Shown here one piece after another: positions 2,036-61,374 of a stretch of DNA of 64,000 nt. The stretch covers positions 7,747,519-7,811,518 of the forward strand of contig CM049306.1 in the NCBI GenBank assembly GCA_026874595.1, given 5' to 3'. The position numbers and the translations under genes are program-made. The notes under the pieces were generated by a model. It did not search any database. It saw only the letters and a list, made by a program, of their open reading frames with translations, and was not told where the DNA came from. Within the stretch, counting starts at the first letter, position 1, and each line of letters opens with the position of its first letter. This DNA comes from Sipunculus nudus. Taxonomy: Eukaryota > Annelida > Sipuncula > Golfingiida > Sipunculidae.

Positions 2036-3165
2036 CTTGTACGAACATTCGAAGCTGAATTGACATAAAGCAAAGCAACGTTATGGGGACAGAATCCGTT
2101 AATAGTGGTAATTATTGTAATTATAAAACAAAGACCATGTATACTGTGTTTAACTGAACGGTAATACAATTTAACTAATTTAAAATCAATCAAGTTTGTA
2201 TATCCCCTAAGATAAGGCGAGTTTAAGAAAATTTCAATATAAATTCAATATTTGATTATTCATATCCTTAAGGAAGATGTCAAAGCCTAAAGAAACTGAA
2301 ACATTCTTCCTGAACGGCGGATTCGGAGCCATGGCTGTTAAACCACTCAAATAGAAATGTTTAGGTCTGCTTGAATGCATTGTGGGTACCTTATTATTTT
2401 AAGAATACAAACAAATATGAGCTTCTTATAGAAACACGCTTTTTGTACAATTTCTTTCAGCTTTTGTTTAAATGGTGTGTTGTTTTATGGAACATGTATT
2501 AGACCATCATAAATTAAAATATGCTAAAAATGATTACTGTGTTTTCGGGTAGGTACGTTGGGGGGGGGGGGGGGGCGGTGCTTCAGCCCCTAAAGCCCAA
2601 GTCTTGATCCACTATAGCTATAACTATAGCTCAGATTATCTTTAATCAACCTATCTTCATAAATGTTTTATTTTCATAAATAAATGGTTTAAATATTTTG
2701 ATCATCTTCATCATGATTTTTCTTCAGCAAAATGCTCTGCTTTGGTCTTAAAGTCGCTATATTCACCTGCCTTATTTATAGAATCTTTGTAATACAGTCT
2801 AACTCTGCATATACATATTAAAGAAGTGAAGGTAATCATAAACATAACCTAGGTAAACATAATCTATTAAACCTTTCATAAAAATGAGCCAATCCCATGG
2901 GTTAAGTTGGTGTCTTTGTCTATATCCACGTGTTTTTATAACATAGGTCGGGGGGGGGGGGGGGGGAGAGTACAGAGTTATGTAAATGACAAATACTGCA
3001 TTGCTTCACATGCTCTAACGAATATCAACTAATAATCTTTCAATAACTCGGTTACATGTTTTTTCTGTATGTTAACACTTGCTCAAGTGCTTTGTTTACA
3101 AGTAGCCTGAAGATTTAATGTTTATACGTCAAAGTGGAGTTATAAGACCCATTCCCAGCTAGGGT
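2036..3165. other. AT-rich DNA with two poly-G tracts
   Basis: Apart from G-runs of 16 (2560-2575) and 17 (2950-2966), which could form G-quadruplex-like structure, nothing is recognisable. Confidence 0.6.
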
Positions 3166-3169
3166 TGCC

Positions 3170-3240
3170 TTTATTTTTTTTTTTTTGCAACCTAAATTTT
3201 CTTTTTTGCTTTCTAAATTTTTGTTTGCTTCCTAAAATAA
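3170..3240 (-). repeat. Reverse-oriented fragment of the aggaagc/A-rich repeat
   Basis: The T-rich stretch containing 'ttttgctttctaaattt' and 'tttgcttcctaaaat' is the reverse complement of the 'aatttaggaagcaaaa' core found at 1.8-2.0 kb. It has about three core units and none of the palindromic flanks, so it is a truncated second copy. Confidence 0.65.
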
Positions 3241-5960
3241 TTCACGAATCCAATGAAAATTCAAAACTGAAACGGGTGGCCCATGGACCATGACTGGCCG
3301 CTGAACATGCACACTACAAAAGACCATAGCACATAAATGTAGGTCGTAAGTGATCTAATTCTTAATTGCAAGAAATGTTAACATATACTGTTTACCTTGT
3401 CTGTATAATAAGATTTACCATTCTAGTTCTGTTGGTTATCATTTGTACCCTTCTTAATATCAGAATAATATCTGCAGTCGGTCATTCTCAACAAGAGACC
3501 CAGGGACCTAACATTCACTCTGTACAAGTCTGTGCAATATTATGGATAACAGTGAAAAAAAATACAGTGATACTGTAAATATACTGTAGAATGCTACATT
3601 TGGGGTGTTACCTATGGCATGAATGTGCATACCACGATAGTCCGTTTTTTCCGCGATTATTTTTGGCAAGTCAATACTGTTTGGAAAATACGTAATTATC
3701 TGTTTTTTTTTTTAAATAATGGCTCACCTCATGTCAGTCTCCTGTAATCAATTTAAAACTATTTTATGAGAAACTATCTATTCTGTAGCGACATCTTACC
3801 ACCAACCAATGAAATGTACAGTGATGACGTTACGCATCACGGGACCAATGATCAAGTGTTGTCGACCCCTCTTTACAACGGGATTTCTATTCTCTGTACT
3901 TCATAACCGTATCCAAGAAGGATAAACAATGGTCACTTGTTAAGGACGTCATGAACCTCGGATATACATGAAACATGTCAACCAGGCCGTAAAGTGAATA
4001 ACATTTATATTTCAAGCAAGTATGGTTAAATAAATACGCAATTTCCTTTATCTGCTATTGGTGCAACGGATCATAATAAAAGTGGATATAGCACATTTTA
4101 TTGCGCAGTGGAAATAGGTCAAAATAAGTAGCGTCACCTGCAGTTTACATGTACTCGCACAAGCTATGCATGGTCACTGTTTGGTAATGGACAATACATA
4201 TTACAAGCAAACGCAGAAATCAGACACTGCAATAAGGTAAGAAGTGGAAACGCAAGTTATGACTCACAGAAAGTATAAGTCAACATATGAGATGTTATAC
4301 CTGCAGCTTACACTGAAATAGCAAACGCAATTCCCGAGATATTCTGTAGCAGAAAATCAATTACTTGAAATCTTCAATATTTGTGGTCAGGATATTTAGC
4401 TTTTAAGGTGATCATGCAGACGTGTTGTTGTCCCGTAAAATAAAGTAACAGTAACCTAATTTTGGATATCCATAGAGGATCTGACGTTTGAATTTCTCAA
4501 AATGCAAAACAAAATGTGTAAAAATAGAAAAATTGCAGATGGCACCACTAGCCGCCTGTAACAGGTAAAGATCAATCAGCTTTTCTAAAACCATGACATT
4601 CTATCTATCTTTCCTGAGCAATCCGGTCTTTTGTATGCAATTTTACTAACAGGAGTCTTCTCTTGTCTTCTCTTCTGAGTTATTTTTGTTCTCTAACTAC
4701 CTGGATCATTAGCAAGTAAAGTTTAAACGTCATGGGTCTAACGCTTATGATTTGTGTTAGCTGAGCTAAAAAACAAAACTCAAGTAAATAATGCACACAG
4801 ATTAAACAGCAAAAATAGGGATAAAAATGTAAGGAAATGACAAACATTGAATAAATCTAACGTCCAAATTAAACTTCTGTTATCGTAATAAGGGCATTTC
4901 TATTCAGGTCCCGCTTCTTTCTGCAAGTTCACGCCAGAGAATTTAATGATAATTCAAACTTGGTCGTCACGCACACATTAACACACGACATGACACTCGC
5001 ATAAACTTTTCCTTTAATCCCTACACATGACCGCAACAGAAATTCATTATATCACCAGACTGTTTATCACGGTGTATTTAAAAAATCTCGTTTCAAGGTC
5101 ATTTTTGTCAGATGTCCAGTGTTAGAAATACAACAAAGAAATTCTTCGAAAGTAAATATATAATAATGGAACTCAAAAGTCAGCCGATTAAGAAAAAATC
5201 TTCACATGCATAAAACAATAACACCTTTTACAGCTAACAGACACAAACCTAAAAAAGGATTTAGGATTAATTTATATAGTTATTTGATCTCTTAGCATTA
5301 CAAATAAATTATAATCACTTTATATATAGACATCTGTTATTCACCCCCCCCCTCGTGTGGAGGGGAGGCCTATAACAGTTGAAGAGTTAATTTCTATATA
5401 AGTATTTGGGTCACACATTTTTGTGGATGGTCTTTCTTAGGTTCCAAGAAGTGCAAAATCATCGTTTACAATATTTTTCTTTTTTTTTCTGCTCATGTTT
5501 GCGTTAGCTCTCATGTATGGCTGATTAAAAAAAGTAATCTCTAGGTACAATATTACTAATAGGTGATAGATTTGCACCTGATATTTATTTCTGACATTAC
5601 TCTAATTTCCAAGGTCGCATACTCCCCATTATCGCTCAGTTGAGGGAACCGGGTTTGGCTTTTTAATAAAAATATAATGCCTCATAGATACTGTTAGTAT
5701 ATCTGTTCATGTAAAATAAAATTCTGCGTTTCTACTCAAAGCGACTGCATTAATGAATAAATAAAACCTTTTTTTACCGCTACTGTTATAATTATTTCTG
5801 CGAATCACATGCACAATTTGGAAATTAGAAATTTGTCAAATTTGGTCGCTAACCATAGGAGCCAAAATACTATAGTAGTGTATAAGAGTAAATATTATTT
5901 TTAACAGAAGGTGTCAAATGCCCTTTAGGAGACAAGAAACGCTTACAGAAAAGAAAGCGT
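3241..5960. other. Unremarkable intergenic DNA
   Basis: Mostly single-copy-looking AT-rich sequence. A C-run at about 5344-5353 and scattered short frames (60-70 codons) were seen. None has a conserved-looking protein, start context or splice structure. Confidence 0.55.
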
Positions 5961-38240: not shown

Positions 38241-38246
38241 ACTGCT

Positions 38247-39530
38247 TTGTCTTTTGATTGATTTAATCATTTAGGTTTGCCTTCTGATTGGTTTAATCAT
38301 TTAGGTTTGTCTATTTATTGGTTTAATCATTTAGGTTTGTTTATTGATTGGTTTAATCATTTAGGTTTGTCTATTGATTGGTTTAATCATTCAGGTTTGT
38401 TTATTGTTGGTTTAATCTTTTAGGTTTGCTTATTGATTGGTTTAATCATTTAGGTTTGTTTATTGATTGGTTTAATCATTTAGGTTTGTTTATTGATTGG
38501 TGTTATCATTTAGATTTTGTCTATTGATTGGTTAAATCATTTAGGTTTGTCTTTTGATGGGTTTAATCATTTAGGTTTGTCTATTGATGGGTTTAATCAT
38601 TAAGGTTTGTCTTTTGATTGGTTTAATCATTTAGGTTTGTTTCTTGATTGGCTTAATCATTTAGGTCTGTCTATTGATTGGCTTAATCATTTAGGTTTGT
38701 CTATTGATTGTTTTAATCATTTAGGTTTGTCTATTGATTGGTTTAATCATTCAGGTTTGTCTATTGATTGGTTTAATCATTTAGGTTTGTCAATTGTTTG
38801 GTTTAATCATTTAGGTTTGTCAATTGTTTGGTTTAATTATTTGGGTTTGTCTATTGTTTGGTTTAATCATTTAGGTTTGTCTATTGATTGGTTTAATCAT
38901 TCAGGTTTGTCTATTGATTGGTTTAATCATTCAGGTTTGTCTATTGATTGGTTTAATCATTTAGGTTTGTCTATTGATTGGTTCAATCATTTCGGTTTGT
39001 CTATTGATTGGTTTAAAAATCTAGGTTTGTCAATTAATCTATGTTTGTCTATTGTTAGGTTTAATCATCTAGGTTTGTCTATTGATTGATTTAATCATTC
39101 AGGTTTGTCTATTGATTGGTTTAATCATTCAGGTTTGTCTATTGATTGGTTTAATCATTTAGGTTTGTCTATTGATTGGTTTAATCATTCAGGTTTGTCT
39201 ATTGATTGGTTTAATAATCTAGGTTTGTCAATTGTTTGGTTTAATCATTTAGGTTTGTCTATTGTTTGGTTTAATCATTCAGGTTTGTCTATTGATTGGT
39301 TTAATCATTTAGGTTTGTCTATTGATTGGTTTAATCATTCAGGTTTGTCTATTGATTGGTTTAATAATCTAGGTTTGTCAATTGTTTGGTTTAATCATTT
39401 AGGTTTGTCTATTGTTTGGTTAAATCACTTAGGTTTGTCAGTTGATTGGCTTAATCATTTAGGTTTGTCTATTGATTGGTTTAATCATTTAGGTTTGTCT
39501 ATTGATTGGTTTAATCATTTAGGTTTGTTT
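38247..39530. repeat. 30-bp tandem satellite (about 43 copies) with 150-bp higher-order repeat
   Basis: The unit is 'ggtttaatcatttaggtttg' plus 'tctattgatt', repeated about 43 times. Variant units (ttaataatct; caattgttt; attcagg) recur together at 150-bp spacing (for example ttaataatct at 39211 and 39361), showing a five-unit higher-order repeat. Because 30 is a multiple of three, two frames stay open for 160 and 147 codons (38607-39089 and 39105-39548), encoding repeats of LSIDWFNHLG. The first 360 bp are broken in frame by 1-bp indels, and there is no flanking coding sequence. I therefore treat it as satellite, not a protein. Confidence 0.93.
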
Positions 39531-40235: not shown

Positions 40236-41268
40236 TTCAGTCAATATCATTCATATTCTCAGTCAATATCGTGCATATTCTCAGTCAATATTATCCATAT
40301 TCCCAGTCAATATCATCAATATTCTCAGTTAATATCATCCATATTCTCAATCAATATTATCCATATTCTCAGTCAATGTCATCCATATTCTCAGTCAATA
40401 CCATCTTATTCTTAGTCAATACCATCCATATTCTCGGTCAATATCATTCATATTCTCAGTTAATATCATCCATATTCTCAGTCAATATCATCCATATTCT
40501 CAGTCAATATCATCCATATTCTCAGTCAATATCATCCATATTCTCAGTCAATATCATCCATATTCTCAGTCAATATCATCCATATTCTCAGTCAATATCA
40601 TCCATATTCTCAGTCAATATCATCCATATTCTCAGTCAATATCATCCATATTCTCGGTCAATATCATCCATATTCTCAGTCAATATCATCTATATTCTCA
40701 GTCAATATCATCCATATTCTCAGTCAATATAATCAGTATTCTCAATCAATATCATCCATATTCTCAGTCAATATCACCCATATTCTCAGTCAATACCATT
40801 CATATTCTCAGTCTATTTCATCCATATTCTCAATCAATTCATCCATATTCTCAGTTAATATCATTCATATTCTCAGTTAATATCATCCATATTCTCAGTC
40901 AATATCATCCATATTCTCAGTCAATATCATCCATATTCTCGGTCGATATCATCCATATTCTCAGTCAATATCATCTATATTCTCAGTCAATATCATCCAT
41001 ATTCTCAGTCAATATAATCAGTATTCTCAGTCAATATCATCCATATTCTCAGTCAATATCACCCATATTTTCAGTCAATACCATTCATATTCTCAGTCTA
41101 TATCATCCATACTCTCAATCAATTCATCCATATTCTCAGTTAATATCATTCATATTCTCAGTTAATATCATCCATATTCTCAGTCAATATCATCCATATT
41201 CTCAGTCAGTATCATCCATATTCTCAGTCAATATCATTCATATTCTCAGTTAATACCATCCATATTCA
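40236..41268. repeat. 22-bp tandem satellite (about 47 copies) with about 285-bp higher-order repeat
   Basis: The unit is 'catattctcagtcaatatca' plus 'tc', about 47 copies. A block of 13 units with distinctive variants (aatataatcagtattctc, atcacccatat, accattcatat, tctatatcatcc) occurs twice, offset by about 285 bp (aatcag at about 40731 and 41016). This marks a recent segmental duplication inside the array. Open frames of 86 and 153 codons (40155-40732) are by-products of the repeat. Confidence 0.93.
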
Positions 41269-44999: not shown

Positions 45000-46205
45000 A
45001 CGTAACATACTGACGTTCTGCTTTGTAAAAGACCTGTTTCAGGTAACAGAAGTGGACATTTAATTAAAATGACGTATCTTAACCCTAGGCCGCCATGTGG
45101 TTTTATCGACAATAATGCATTCAATGTAAGATCAGCACAGGACAGTTGGAGCAAATATTTATATTTTTACACTGAACATGCCGGGTAACAATGGTGATTT
45201 TCTTAAAAATGAAGTACCATATGATCAATCCTTCGCTGTTCTATAATGTATTCATACGGTATGTTTAACATATAATGCTTCTACATTCTATAAAGTTGTT
45301 CGACCTGTTGAGCTTGTCTATTTAAAATGTGCAGATTTTTCGAGAATCAAACATTTACAAAAGTCTGCTAGAGAAATGATAGGGTTACACATTTTTTATG
45401 AAATATCAAGTATTAAAATTAATCCATATTGCATAAAGATGCATGGTAATAATTAAAACTCTCAAACATTGTCTTTTGTCTGAATTGACAGTGATTTTAA
45501 AACAAGGACGCAAGAATCCAAAGATTACATTTCCCACATGACAATACTGGACAAGCAAGAATTATTCTACATTTTTCTGTTACCTACAAGATCTTTCAAA
45601 TTGAATTTATTTTAGGTGCAAAATGAGGTGATAACGAGAGAGCAACTTCATGTCCCCGGACAGTCTCAGCCTAGGGGTTTGTAGAAATATGTACCTGAAA
45701 TATGTACCTGAAATATGTATCTGTTTGATATGATACAGACGATGTTTTAGTATTATTCATTAAAAGAAAACCGGCGATATTGGTGTTTATGATAAGGGTG
45801 TTCACTTTTAAATTATGATTTTATCGAATAATGATTTTGAAGTTTACATGTATAAAATTTATTTATTGATGAGGAGTTTTCATTAATGAATGGTTTTCTG
45901 TTAAATGTAAGCCAACAATTAAAATATAATGTGTTATATAGCATAGGTTTATACCTGCAGTGTTGCAAATGAAATAATTTGAATATGTAAACGCAAAGAA
46001 ACTTCTAAAGTTAAAATTAATATTTAAACAATGGAGGAACCAGATTCGTAAAATGTTGGGTTTTCATAAGCAACAGAGCCGACAACATTATATTACTATC
46101 TTTAAGATAATATAAGCAGGGCATGTAAATGATTTCAAGGCAATATAAACATATAATTGATGTGAAATTGTGAAAAAAATATTTACACATACCCTATATA
46201 CACAT
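45000..46205. other. Unremarkable AT-rich intergenic DNA
   Basis: A small direct repeat 'gaaatatgtacct' occurs at about 45685 and 45698; otherwise nothing. Confidence 0.5.
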
Positions 46206-46642
46206 ACACTCTTAGAAAAAAGGGTTCCAACTAGAACCCAAAAGGGTTCTTCAGAGTGGACTGAGTGGGGAACCTTTTAAGGTTCCAGCTAGAACCTTCA
46301 AGCGGGGTTCCTTTTGGAACCTCCCTAAGGTTCTTTTATAGAACCTATTAGGTTCCATAAAGAACCTCTTTAGAGGTTCTGAGAAGAACCCTCTAAGGTT
46401 CTTCACGGTGGACTGAGTGGGGAACCTTAAAGGTTCTTGGTGGAACCAATGTGTAGGGTTCTTCATGGAACCTTCAATGTATTTTTATTTAAGTAAACAG
46501 TCTAGGATGTCCTATTATACGTTTAGGAAAAATTAATTCCGTCATATGTCCATACATATTTGATAGAGTGTTGATTGATATGCAAAAAAAATATAAAAAC
46601 ATTTCTCAAAGAAGTTGGGTACCTGCAAGGATCATAGCTGAA

Positions 46643-46645
<3 letters not shown>

Positions 46646-46703
<58 letters not shown>

Positions 46704-46707
46704 ATAT
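46646..46707. repeat. (TA)n microsatellite inside the 3.3-kb element
   Basis: About 23 TA units followed by 'tgtatgtatgtatata'. Confidence 0.96.
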
Positions 46708-47325
46708 CCTCTAAATGTGATGAAACCTTCCAGGCAAAATGAAAACTGTTTTTTTTAAGGAAACATATTTATTGAGTTATAAAGACCAGTCTGTGAAAAA
46801 AGAGCAATTACAAAAAGTATTAGCTAATAAATGCACGTAATTGATAAAACTGATATTTGCTTTACAGAGTTCATGAACTCCTCACGCAGTTCTGAGTCGT
46901 TTTCTCAAACTTAAATGAATTGTTTTCTTGGTATATACTAACAATGAAATTAAATATTCTCTCTTATCTGCACACACCAACATCCCTATAAGAATAGAAC
47001 TATGATGCGCAGAGTGTTCTGTTTTTTTTTTGTACATTTGATATCCGGTGAACGTCAAGAATATTTTTGATGAATTATTTGTGTGTTCTCAGGTATTTGT
47101 CTATCTCTTGCGAGTCCAGGTCCTCTTGTGTAGGTATTATGTATTATAAAAATAATACTTATCTGCTTTACAAAATAAAATATATGAAGTCGCAGCAACA
47201 TATAATCGATACACAACAGGTGATGCAACAAGTGTCTTGCACGATCTTTGTATTGCTATATACAGCTGATACGCCTTGGTGAGCGATTCAAACGAATTCC
47301 AGTCCCATAGGCAAATGTATTGTTT

Positions 47326-47491
47326 CTATGTATACAAATCTTCAAACGAAATGCCTGTATAGAATCGATGAGCTGTATGATCGGCGATAAAGTCCAAACA
47401 CTGCGACGGTCCAACTAATCTCTGATTCCGTGTCATCATATCACTTAATTGCGTGATGCGTACTTGGCAAGGAAAGGTACGGAGAATCGAT
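47326..47491 (-). CDS. Candidate terminal exon of an unknown gene
   Basis: On the minus strand a pyrimidine-rich acceptor ('ttattttttacag') is followed by 54 open codons and a TAG stop. The peptide (start SILRTFPCQV, containing 'MTRNQRLVGPSQCLDFIA' and ending 'GISFEDLYT') has balanced composition, unlike the low-complexity frames elsewhere. I recognise no family. It sits inside the 3.3-kb TA-flanked element, downstream of the other exon-like segments. Direct joining to the 47982-48071 segment would create a TGA at the junction. So either an additional exon lies between them or the model is wrong. A longer open frame of 135 codons (47326-47733) continues upstream through a (GA)n run, but that part is unlikely to be coding. 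Confidence 0.25.
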
Positions 47492-47594
47492 CTGTAAAAA
47501 ATAAGAGATGAAATATATATTACCAGCAGTTGAGAATTAATTAACATACGGTGTTTCTGGTCTGTGAAGTCGCTAATTGGAACTCGCCCCCCCC

Positions 47595-47620
47595 CTTCTC
47601 TCTCTCTCTCTCTCTCTCTG
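47595..47620. repeat. C-run plus (CT)n microsatellite
   Basis: Nine C followed by about 12 CT units; this gives the Arg-Glu repeats in two minus frames. Confidence 0.95.
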
Positions 47621-47981
47621 AGTGGGGATTGCATCTTGAATGTTGATGTTGTTAACATTACAATGTTTTGGCAAGCGTCCCAAAATATATTTGACACGAA
47701 AAAAGTCATATGAACCGCAGATGACGAATACAATAACTATTACAAACAACACATACTTTTCAGAAAGGTATTTTAACATAGAATGGGTAATTATTCTTAC
47801 TTTTTCTTAATTGACTTATAATAATTATTATCTTGCTTTCAAATTATTTGTAGTCTCCTTATATAGTTATAGGTGGTTAACATAGACAAAAATAACTGTT
47901 TTTTGCTTTGTGATACACAATGCCAACTGCATTATTAAAAACTTTTTTTTATGATTTAGAAATAACTCCTGAACAACGTAC

Positions 47982-48071
47982 CATATTATAATCGTCAGCC
48001 CAGTTACAACGAAAATCCACTCTTCCTTTTTCATTTCATTCTTGCTATAGCCAGGCAGATGTATCTGGTTC
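47982..48071 (-). CDS. Candidate internal exon with hydrophobic segment
   Basis: Minus-strand segment with a good acceptor ('tttctctttgcag') and donor ('gtacgt'), 90 bp. In one phase it reads 29 codons without a stop: charged 'HLPGYSKNEMKKEE' then hydrophobic 'WIFVVTGLTIII', like a membrane-segment start. Its first part is nearly identical to the start of the 48521-48593 segment (shared 'agatacatctgcctggctat'), so the two are a local tandem duplication that includes neighbouring intron-like sequence ('ctttgtgatacacaat'). In the phase that keeps the other copy open, this copy has an early stop. No family recognised. Confidence 0.25.
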
Positions 48072-48520
48072 CTGCAAAGAGAAAGAATGGATGGGTACCA
48101 GTATATTCTGTACTTGGTAATACACGTAATTAATCAATGCAACACCTGGTTAATTAGAGGACGCCTTAAACGAATGTGTAATTAAGCGTAACCACACAGT
48201 GAGAGGCCAAGTTCTGTCCCGCATGTCCATATGTATTGAAAACCCCAAAACTAAGGTCTCCAAAACAAAATATAAACATAACAAAATAGCATGCATATGT
48301 GTGCATTGGATTTTACGGTGTATCAATATAATTAATAAGCAACCTTGTCTTATTCTTTAAAATGTATGGCATATCCCTCACAATTAGATGTATATGCAGA
48401 CATAAAAACCTTAGACTTTTGTTTTGTGATACACAATTCCATGTGTGTTGGTACCACCTGACAGGTTACAATTTAAGTATAACTCTGGAATAACTTTTAA
48501 TGCACGATATATAAACTTAC

Positions 48521-48593
48521 CTTTTCAAAGGAAAATTCCTGTCAAATTCTTTTTCGTTTGCTCTCTTAATAGCCAGGCAGATGTATCTTGTCA
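48521..48593 (-). CDS. Candidate internal exon (duplicated neighbour of the previous one)
   Basis: Minus-strand 73-bp segment with acceptor ('cctcgttgcag') and strong donor ('gtaagtttat'). One phase is open throughout (TRYICLAIKR...NFPLK). Its 3' phase (two bases left over) is compatible with the 5' phase of 47982-48071. Joining to the upstream ATG exon at 49257-49322 is out of phase, so either another exon lies between them or only one duplicate is used. No family recognised. Confidence 0.22.
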
Positions 48594-49256
48594 CTGCAAC
48601 GAGGAATGCATGTGTTAATTAAGTAAAGTCTACGTTTGTATTAATTAGCCCATTATACAATACCGAGTTTATTAGTGAACACCTTCAGTCAATGTGCAAT
48701 TGGGTGTGACTTTATATTGAGAGAGTCCTTTTTGTCCCAAGGCCAAAGTGTTGAAAATTCCGAGCAGTTTATAAAACAATGCTCTTATTTCTACCATTTG
48801 CTGACTAAACTTAAAATAGCAAGGCTTGTGTTCTTTTGCCTAATGTAAAATAAATGATTTGTCGAAGAGTCTAAAGAAATGACAAAGGATAGAGACGATA
48901 GAGACTTGTAAACATTGTATACAGGTTATTAATGTTATGAATGTATTCCATGTATAATCGTCCAGCTTGTTCAGTTTCAGTCATTCAAGCCGATTTTCAC
49001 CTTTGTTTGGTGACTGTTCCTTTACAATGCTTGAACTGTTTCTAATTCTGCTTGTGTTACTATGAACTTTTATTACTTTGCTGCAACAATTATTGCACGC
49101 AAAAGCATGTTTATCATGGGACTTTGTCCAGGTTTAGATTAATTGAACGTAACTCCGTTCGCCGACAGAGACTTATTCACTGGACAGTAAATCTCTAGAC
49201 ATATAACTTTGACGTTCTTCACATAAAATTAAGTTATATATAAACATCAGTCTTAC

Positions 49257-49322
49257 CTCATTTACTGTGTTTTCTCTTCTCACATATCGAGCAAACCAAA
49301 ACAACCCGACCGTTGACTTCAT
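49257..49322 (-). CDS. Candidate first exon (ATG to GTAAGA donor)
   Basis: On the minus strand an ATG opens 22 codons (start MKSTVGLFWFARYVRR, end NTVNE) and meets a consensus donor GAG|GTAAGA in phase 0. Sixteen bases upstream is the palindrome TGCGCATGCGC (49338-49348), the NRF-1 consensus often seen in animal promoters. The exon lies just inside the right terminus of the TA-flanked element and points inward, as expected for a transposon-encoded gene. No homology recognised; short first exons are easy to find by chance, so confidence is low. Confidence 0.28.
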
Positions 49323-49337
49323 TAGTTCAAATAAAGC

Positions 49338-49348
49338 TGCGCATGCGC
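49338..49348. promoter_or_regulatory. NRF-1-like palindrome
   Basis: TGCGCATGCGC, a perfect match to the core NRF-1 site in a very AT-rich area, 16 bp upstream of the candidate ATG exon on the minus strand. Confidence 0.45.
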
Positions 49349-49559
49349 GTCTTAATCATATTGGTATCCGGTCAAGGCACGGGTTCCATCTAGAACCTCA
49401 TTTTGAGTTATGATCATGGCACGAACCTCTAGGTTCCATCTGGAACCTATTCATGGGGAAAAGAGTTCCAGAAAGAACCATGGTTCTTTCCAGAACCTTT
49501 TGGGTTCTTAAAAGAACCATCAGGAACCTTTTTTTCTTAGAGTGTACCCCTTGACAGGT

Positions 49560-55395: not shown

Positions 55396-55404
55396 ACTAT
55401 AAAC

Positions 55405-56230
55405 ACTCTAATAAAAGAGGGTTCCAGGTAGAACCCAAAACGGTTCTTCGTAGTGTACTGAGTGGGGAACCTTTAAGGGTTCTAACTGGAACCTTTAACA
55501 CATGGTTCTTTTTGGAACATCCCATGGGTTCTTTATGGAACCTGACAGGTTCCATCTAGATGCTATTGAAAGGGTTCCTCCCGGAACCCTTTAAGGTTCT
55601 TTAGAGTGGACTGACTGGGGACCTTTGAAGGGTTCTTTGTGGAATCCAAGGTATATGGTTCTTCATGGAACCTTCAGAGTAGGCTTGTCTTTATAAGTCC
55701 AGGGTGTCATATAAAACAATTAGGCTAAATTATTTAGAAGGGGTATAGACCATTTTTTCTTCATTAACCTCAGAATAATTTAATTGGACAGAATGGAGCC
55801 TACTCAGGGAGAGCTAACGTTTCATTTTTGTTTGTGCCGAAGATACGTAACCAATATGGTTTCGTTAATACTGCCATCTGGTAAAGAATAACACTGTTGA
55901 TGGATTATATGATATAATTCAATAGTTTTTTCATGAAATGTTGGAAAAATGCCTGTACTAAATGTAAAAGTAATTTCATTTGTAATCTGTGTGCAAGTAA
56001 ATGCTTTCAGTGTGGAATGAAAACATAGTTTTACAGAAACATATTTTTTTTAAACATTTATTTGTAATTTCCCCCCAAAAACAATACAAAAGTTCACAAT
56101 CATAAACCAACTATATGAATACAGGAAACAAAGGCATTATCATATGTTACGTTGGTCTCCGCCAGATACGATGTCTTTGGTGTTTGTGATACAGAGTTTA
56201 TGAACACCACACCCTATTTCACCCAGCATT
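55405..56230. mobile_element. Second, left-end copy of the GGTTCC-palindrome element
   Basis: Starts 'aacactctaataaaagaggg' and repeats the same order of GGTTCC/GGAACC palindromes and 'gtgtactgagtggggaacct' and 'gtggactgactgggg' landmarks as 46216-46475. Weaker similarity continues: 'aaccttcagagtaggcttg' against 'aaccttcaatgtattt', and 'cagaaacatatttttttta' against 'aaggaaacatatttatt'. 'atacagagtttatgaacac' also matches 'ttacagagttcatgaactc'. No matching right terminus was found in the next 3 kb, so the copy may be truncated. Confidence 0.6.
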
Positions 56231-60383: not shown

Positions 60384-60436
<53 letters not shown>

Positions 60437-60587
60437 AAACATAATGTATGGAGAATAATTTAAGCGCCCTTGAGGAAACAGGGTTTCAGAATGAATCACA
60501 GTTTTAACCCTCAATTACACGAGTTTCGTGAAATTCAATTTTAAGAAGGTTCATGGTAATACATTATTTGTTATTAAATTAAATTTG

Positions 60588-60650
<63 letters not shown>

Positions 60651-60915
60651 ATGAATATATGTGAAAGATAAAAGTGTATAGTGTATTTTATATGAAACAA
60701 ATGTGATGAGTGCGGGTGCGGACGGAAAAAGCGCGGATAGGTGTGAACAGAGAGAACGTATGGCGGACAACGGATGACGGAAGCGGGTGCGGGTGCGGAA
60801 GGAAAAAAAAAAAGGGGCGGGGTAATTTGGAATAAAGACTGATAAGTCGATGAATATAATACAAATTTACTAGTAAGCCCACGAAAAATAAAATATAGCC
60901 TATTATATAAAGTAG

Positions 60916-60980
<65 letters not shown>

Positions 60981-61131
60981 AAACATAATGTATGGAGAAT
61001 AATTTAAGCGCCCTTGAGGAAACAGGGTTTCAGAATGAATCACAGTTTTAACCCTCAATTACACGAGTTTCGTGAAATTCAATTTTAAGAAGGTTCATGG
61101 TAATACATTATTTGTTATTAAATTAAATTTG

Positions 61132-61190
<59 letters not shown>

Positions 61191-61374
61191 ATGAATATAT
61201 GTGAAAGATAAAAGTGTATAGTGTATTTTATATGAAACAAATGTGATGAGTGCGGGTGCGGACGGAAAAAGCGCGGATAGGTGTGAACAGAGAGAACGTA
61301 TGGCGGACAACGGATGACGGAAGCGGGTGCGGGTGCGGAAGGAAAAAAAAAAAGGGATAGGTGTGAACGCGGCT
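59885..61374. mobile_element. Non-autonomous PIF/Harbinger-type element with TTA duplication
   Basis: Left terminus 'aggggcgttcacacctatcc' and right terminus 'ggataggtgtgaacgcggct' are inverted repeats. They are flanked on both sides by TTA (59882-59884 and 61375-61377), the 3-bp duplication typical of PIF/Harbinger. Inverted similarity continues inward (cccttccgcac...gtcatccgtc against gacggaagcggg...gcggaagg). An inner 'ttcacacctatccgc' copy at 59970-59986 is matched by inner inverted copies at about 60735 and 61275. No transposase frame. A CRE-like TATGACGTCATA lies at 60082-60093. Confidence 0.82.
60282..61353. repeat. 532/540-bp tandem duplication inside the Harbinger-type element
   Basis: Copy 1 (60282-60813) and copy 2 (60814-61353) start 'ggggcggggtaatttggaat' and end 'gcggaaggaaaaaaaaaaa'. 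They look essentially identical outside the two (TA)n runs each contains (60385-60432 and 60592-60645; 60916-60976 and 61136-61185). The length difference comes mainly from these microsatellites. Confidence 0.93.

Follow-up and report, generated by a model that had tools for sequence, protein, structure and literature searches.

A probable non-autonomous DNA transposon with CACTA-like ends and long subterminal arrays in the genome of Sipunculus nudus

What kind of mobile DNA is a TA-flanked element that carries dense palindromes at both ends and exon-like segments between them, and does it contain a gene? The question is raised by a stretch of 64,000 nucleotides from the annelid Sipunculus nudus (assembly GCA_026874595.1, contig CM049306.1, positions 7,747,519 to 7,811,518 of the forward strand; hereafter the window), which is C1:7747519-7811518 of the genome that we searched (1.43 Gb, 153 contigs). 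A first-pass annotation made from the letters alone had placed an element of about 3.3 kb at positions 46216..49545 of the window, and had read into its minus strand a small intron-containing gene that was not an obvious transposase. Here we describe the ends, the copies and the interior of this element, and conclude that it is probably a 3.3-kb non-autonomous cut-and-paste DNA transposon from a large family with CACTA (CMC/EnSpm)-like ends, which would depend on a transposase supplied in trans. It is most likely ordinary in kind. The claim of a gene fails for the window copy and is weak for the family.

Termini, flanks and copies of the element

The element is real, and its left bound lies slightly further out than was first proposed. 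It occupies positions 46207-49544 (3,338 bp) and is flanked on both sides by TA, at 46205..46206 (a putative 2-bp target-site duplication) and at 49545..49546. The left terminal inverted repeat, CACTCTTAGAAAAAAGGGTTCC, spans 46207..46228 on the plus strand, and its inverted partner, CACTCTAAGAAAAAAAGGTTCC in the minus-strand reading, spans 49523..49544. Both follow the form CACTCT(T/A)AGAAAAAA; together with its TA flank the left terminus reads TACACTCTTAGAAAAAAGGGTTCC at 46205, and the inverted partner ends at 49546. The inverted termini that had been proposed are borne out by identity at 20 of the first 25 bases just inside the TA. A genome-wide search with the terminus pattern gave 198 matches with at most one mismatch, and the control with the reversed pattern gave none. 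A TA lies directly outside the left end in 16 of the 20 copies fetched; three of the other four have TG, AT and TT there, and in one the end is truncated. On the right, five of the six fetched loci in which an end was found have TA next to it, and the sixth has AA. Four fetched copies (L009, L022, L024 and L026, with L022 rearranged) and the window copy possess both ends with TA. Elsewhere, at C2:38716232-38716849, there are five terminus copies in the same orientation, spaced 85, 256, 85 and 169 bp, as if the terminus had been absorbed into a tandem array.

The copies support the earlier claim of a mobile element. A search with the left end yielded 687 first-look candidates, and every one of the 40 scored has a best match of 91-100% identity; of the 39 besides the window copy, 20 were fetched. 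Interior DNA beyond position 800 of the window element is present in 16 of these 20, and the right end is reached in six. A separate search with the interior gave 646 candidates, of which 40 including the window copy were scored, and 14 of the 39 others give a single unbroken alignment of 2,300 or more of the 2,651 bases, with an identity of 86-93%. The window copy lacks some 70 bases that are present in several of the others. The common interior (46480..49375), in which a Pfam scan of ten peptides recognised no transposase, includes an (AT)n run at 46646..46707.

More distant relatives were also found. Six distant loci have shared stretches in the same order at roughly 59-83% DNA identity piecewise; L037, L038, L040 and L041 match most of the interior, and L039 and L042 just its 3' part. 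Crosswise matches in these loci stem from an internal duplication of the element. L038 holds about 1.6 kb of extra DNA relative to L037, at about 2477-4083 in the gene sense. After 40 further short loci had been added, the sequences of the last exon-like segment were grouped by eye into A (with the window copy), A', B, C, D, E, F and G, which are working labels and not a tree, with C, E, F and G known only from stretches of 0.3-1 kb. Inside the window itself, the second partial copy that had been reported at 55.4 kb is the diverged left end of a related element on the plus strand (55403..55735): over its left 333 bp, including the terminus, it is 76% identical to the window element (337 aligned columns), and a few weak collinear pieces go on inward. 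No right end of this copy was found within the window. Among the matches listed, coding similarity between the two copies is confined to the ends, the others (none better than about 4e-4) being taken as chance.

Order of the subterminal arrays

Both ends are crowded with the palindromic GGTTCC/GGAACC repeats that had been noted there. GGTTC/GAACC motifs reach 72 per kb in the left array, 65 in the right array and 58 in the 55.4-kb copy, against 0.84 in the rest of the window. The left array (46223..46472) has 20 motifs in 276 bp, compared with a mean of 1.2 and a maximum of six in 1000 first-order Markov sequences; their orientation alternates strictly, and the spacings are mostly 10-14 bp or else 25 bp. 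This array also includes a 54-bp direct repeat, its copies offset by 152 bp from start to start. The right array (49382..49528) has 11 motifs in 168 bp, and the 55.4-kb copy has 16. Folded as single-stranded DNA, positions 46205-46480 reach -63.4 kcal/mol (z = -7.84), a value that none of 200 shuffles equalled. The subterminal motifs are repeated, asymmetric in number (20 at the left end against 11 at the right) and able to form palindromes, as is expected of CACTA elements.

The same order was seen over 27 ends, which are mostly closely related left ends and hence not independent: successive motifs alternate in 385 of 429 pairs, 338 of 429 spacings fall within 10-14 bp, and the commonest spacing is 11 bp (219). 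Two sister elements of the same genome, L063 (3.9 kb) and L064 (4.7 kb), have their ends in common with the window element. The spacing run 11-11-25-11-11-14-11 is found again in L064, and in L063 without its first two spacings, whereas the interiors of both gave no DNA match to that of the window element. A Pfam scan of ten segments from this sister family returned one match only (E=0.2). Because the order of the array outlasts the interior, it suggests that the array is the functional part of the element.

The sister family also bears on whether the GGTTCC clusters are two separate short elements with ordinary DNA between them by chance. Its same ends around another interior would be compatible with this, as would the 55.4-kb copy, which shows one end in the window. 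However, the same interior recurs in many genomic copies, and both TA-flanked ends are found in the four fetched copies named above as well as in the window copy. Since other copies carry the same interior, we are dealing with one coherent family and not with two independent short elements; the latter idea, which is refuted for this family by the shared interior, is hardly credible. Collecting copies was how the first-pass annotation had proposed to recognise short termini with unrelated DNA between them, and this is not what the copies of this family look like.

Exon-like signals in the interior

The signals listed by the first-pass annotation are all present on the minus strand. An NRF-1-like palindrome (GCGCATGCGC, 49339..49348), which is unchanged in L040, similar in both L037 and L038 and different in L041, precedes a first exon-like segment that runs from ATG to GAG and ends at a GTAAGA donor (49257..49322). 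Two middle exon-like segments follow, copy A (48521..48593; acceptor CTCGTTGCAG, donor GTAAGT) and copy B (47982..48071; acceptor CTCTTTGCAG, then GTACGT), which duplicate each other 522 bp apart. A terminal segment (47326..47491; acceptor TATTTTTTACAG) ends in TAG, and an AATAAA hexamer resembling a poly(A) signal lies on the predicted sense strand at 46768..46773. It had been suspected that the exon phases do not all join, and this is correct: exon 1 (phase 0) meets TGA right at the junction when joined to the copy A acceptor at 48593, and TAG after eight codons when joined to the copy B acceptor at 48071. No frame from the ATG gets more than eight codons past the first junction, so the exons of the window copy do not lie in one open frame, and here the small intron-containing gene has to be given up.

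A real spliced gene, in which an NRF-1-like promoter is followed by exon 1, one of the two middle copies (A or B), the last exon and a poly(A) signal, might still have been intact ancestrally and decayed here. The first donor, the acceptors and AATAAA recur with small changes in four aligned relatives (an aligned AATAAA is seen in L040, L037, L041 and L038). A three-way comparison in 30-base windows, with an overall identity of 0.45, has two exon-like starts with their acceptors among its top four windows, namely those of copies B (0.83) and A (0.80). Against this, the two other best windows, 48386-48415 (0.83) and 48452-48481 (0.80), are not exons, the four aligned relatives do not keep exon 1 as a protein and differ in it by lengths that are not multiples of three, and the donor of copy B is lost or altered in L037 and L041. 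Frame-changing length differences between subfamilies occur in the last exon as well. Weighing these together with the codon tests that follow, we regard such a gene as improbable.

The last exon was compared in an alignment of 26 sequences, which excludes some close copies as well as L040, L045, L048, L052 and L061, where this segment is broken or short. Scored by column shuffling, no candidate exon exceeds z = 1.2 in a sense frame, while a 3' control stretch reaches 1.3 and the antisense frames of the last exon up to 2.6. In the frame proposed by the earlier annotation, pN/pS (the ratio of nonsynonymous to synonymous differences per site) is 1.20 for A-A', 0.93 for A-B and 0.96 for A'-B, which speaks against the gene; 0.37 for A'-C and 0.53 for A'-D speak in its favour, and B-D, anchored on B, gives 0.63 in another frame. 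The 5-95% ranges in simulation were 0.24-0.58 at omega 0.3 and 0.56-2.19 at omega 1. One sequence, L047, belonged to no group, and after 20 more loci had been added, 45 of 46 sequences were grouped for an analysis of 108 bases in six groups, a count that also leaves out A and A'; this gave 0.64 (P = 0.19) in the candidate frame and 0.63 in one antisense frame. For an analysis of 95 and 70 bases, 40 of 46 sequences were grouped (L047, L065, L068, L070, L075 and L078 were left out). The downstream 95 bases gave pN/pS of 0.47 in the earlier frame (P = 0.02, uncorrected and one of nine tests), and the first 70 bases had their lowest value in a different frame (0.55, P = 0.09).

The reading frame itself differs among the groups. 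Group D, as represented by L041, L066 and the majority of the group, has one open frame that runs through the last exon from its acceptor to TAG. The majorities of A, A', B, C, E and G carry a near-duplicate of 7 bases, CACGCAT ahead of CACGCAA, by which two frames are separated. This pattern would fit an ancestral gene that lost its frame in most of the later subfamilies, or chance in a segment of 170 bases. The weak signal in part of the last exon leaves some space for an ancestral small gene that has now decayed. The first-pass annotation had asked whether a conserved coding frame and TA duplications are shared among copies; a TA flank is shared (16 of 20 left ends), but consistent codon-level constraint between subfamilies was not found.

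Profile searches of the exon peptides, which had been recommended, were equally unsupportive: none of ten minus-strand peptides (nine open segments and one joined) reached the curated Pfam cut-off, and one match was at chance level (E=0.14). Searching the PDB gave no match with a joined peptide of 78 amino acids, and a single one (E=3.4, taken as chance) with a nine-row profile of the last exon; Rfam gave no hit on the window at gathering scores. The joined peptide had at least 150 matches in the genome, and about 110 of the 150 rows listed cover the terminal segment. Copy A plus the last exon was therefore once considered as an in-phase conserved protein, and was dropped because non-exon DNA is similarly conserved between subfamilies and the codon tests are unsupportive.

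Exon-like signals without a recognised transposase could also come from a host gene fragment captured by a Pack-type element. With no Pfam match at the cut-off and no convincing PDB match, and with relatives compared over several kilobases carrying the same interior, this origin seems very unlikely; any such capture must be old, because the relatives share that interior.

Affinity of the element and its transposase

The assignment to CACTA-like elements rests on three traits taken together, namely termini of the form CAC..GTG, a flanking TA, and subterminal arrays that are palindromic and asymmetric. The two ends of the window element begin with CACTCTTAG.. and CACTCTAAG.. in keeping with the CAC..GTG / CACT.. 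termini of this group. Of the bases in the 13-mer of En/Spm, the right terminus shares 11 and the left terminus 10.

Among animal elements, the CACTA transposon ENS1_Cis of Ciona and two CACTA-type miniature inverted-repeat transposable elements (MITEs), CMC-NA_1/2, are described with invariable CAC/GTG termini and a 2-bp duplication (PMC6004678), and the window element is like them in its 5'-CAC..GTG-3' termini and 2-bp flanks. The MITEs are also described as encoding no transposase, and none is recognised in the window element, which differs from them in its length (3.3 kb against 116-422 bp) and its dense GGTTC/GAACC arrays (PMC6004678). As with those MITEs, no autonomous partner of the window element was found among the terminus sites listed. 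The TA flank has a counterpart in ESTA, an EnSpm-like lineage with TA duplications that is placed with EnSpm in the CMCT group, where CA..TG termini are reported in most cases; the ESTA families described there, however, are fungal and encode a transposase and a TET/JBP dioxygenase, neither of which is recognised here (PMC12730594). In plants, the soybean Tgmt* combines CACTA repeats of 13 bp with a duplication of 3 bp, and its subterminal repeats are asymmetric and capable of forming palindromes; CACTA subterminal repeats are recognised by TNPA and act in cis, while the proteins may come in trans (PMC2613891). The window element resembles En/Spm and Tgmt* in a terminal repeat starting with CACT and in asymmetric, palindrome-capable subterminal repeats. 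Its motif sequence is another one, Tgmt* has a 3-bp duplication, and autonomous plant elements encode proteins of the TNPD/TNPA type (PMC2613891).

By this analogy, the short CACTC.. terminal repeat would serve cleavage, and a transposon-encoded protein would bind the long, alternating and asymmetric GGTTC/GAACC arrays and so bring the ends together. The transposase would be supplied in trans from a candidate autonomous element, and the interior with its exon-like signals would be inherited passenger DNA, perhaps with the remains of an ancestral gene and without a working gene in the window copy. Seven matches to Transposase_21, the CACTA type of transposase with C2C and H(3-4)H motifs, occur in the genome, four of them with stop-free open frames of 549-973 amino acids, and these may be regarded as candidates for autonomous elements. 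A more elaborate scenario, to which we give little credence, is that the ancestral element carried a small spliced gene for something other than a transposase, with an NRF-1-like promoter, a tandem-duplicated middle exon, a terminal exon and a poly(A) signal, and that its product bound the phased GGTTC/GAACC arrays as a TNPA-like helper. Such a helper would have been kept on elements without a transposase, with group D having the most open last exon and the window copy decayed.

Several observations weigh against a CACTA-like affinity. No empty site for the window copy was found when its joined flanks, which are unique, were compared with its own genome, and for this reason TA is not proven to be a duplication and could belong to the terminus. 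None of the seven Transposase_21 matches lies within 10 kb of a terminus, among the 100 of 198 terminus sites listed (on C8 and C12 these are exact matches only). TA is also the target of Tc1/mariner elements, so the flank fits them as well. Not all animal CACTA elements have CAC ends, since Spongebob has CCC ends with a 2-bp duplication (PMC4298943), and PHISTA, a lineage of PHIS, has TA duplications too (PMC12730594).

Another TA-duplicating superfamily, be it Tc1/mariner, a PHIS lineage with TA or one without a name, may thus mobilise the same element, and the lack of a CACTA transposase linked to these ends among the terminus sites listed would agree with that. On the other side, the CACTC terminus with its long asymmetric palindromic subterminal arrays resembles CACTA, and typical Tc1/mariner ends are unlike it. 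We consider such a superfamily unlikely, though a serious candidate. ISL2EU, also of the PHIS group, shares a 2-bp duplication with the window element, and PHISTA even the TA; ISL2EU, however, duplicates AT in the target A|AT|T, and membership on this ground was rejected as the flanks here are TA (PMC4482050, PMC12730594). A literature search by terminus sequence recognised nothing related among the papers listed; Repbase was outside its scope, and we do not claim that the family is undescribed. Elements with similarly GGTTC-rich ends exist in fish.

The remainder of the window has repeats of other kinds. Positions 60385-60816 and 60929-61356, about 540 bp apart, contain identical pieces of 257 and 221 bases and are a recent local duplication. 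Tandem arrays with units of 50, 30 and 22 bp, in which open frames of 152-306 codons occur, lie at 1-630, 38246-39528 and 40237-41267.

For the annotation of this genome, which is where it mainly matters, this high-copy family of probable CACTA-like non-autonomous transposons has splice-like signals and open segments that risk being taken for host genes. The array spacing that is kept across families with unrelated interiors offers a clear target for work on the means by which CACTA-like transposases of animals might recognise subterminal arrays of such length.

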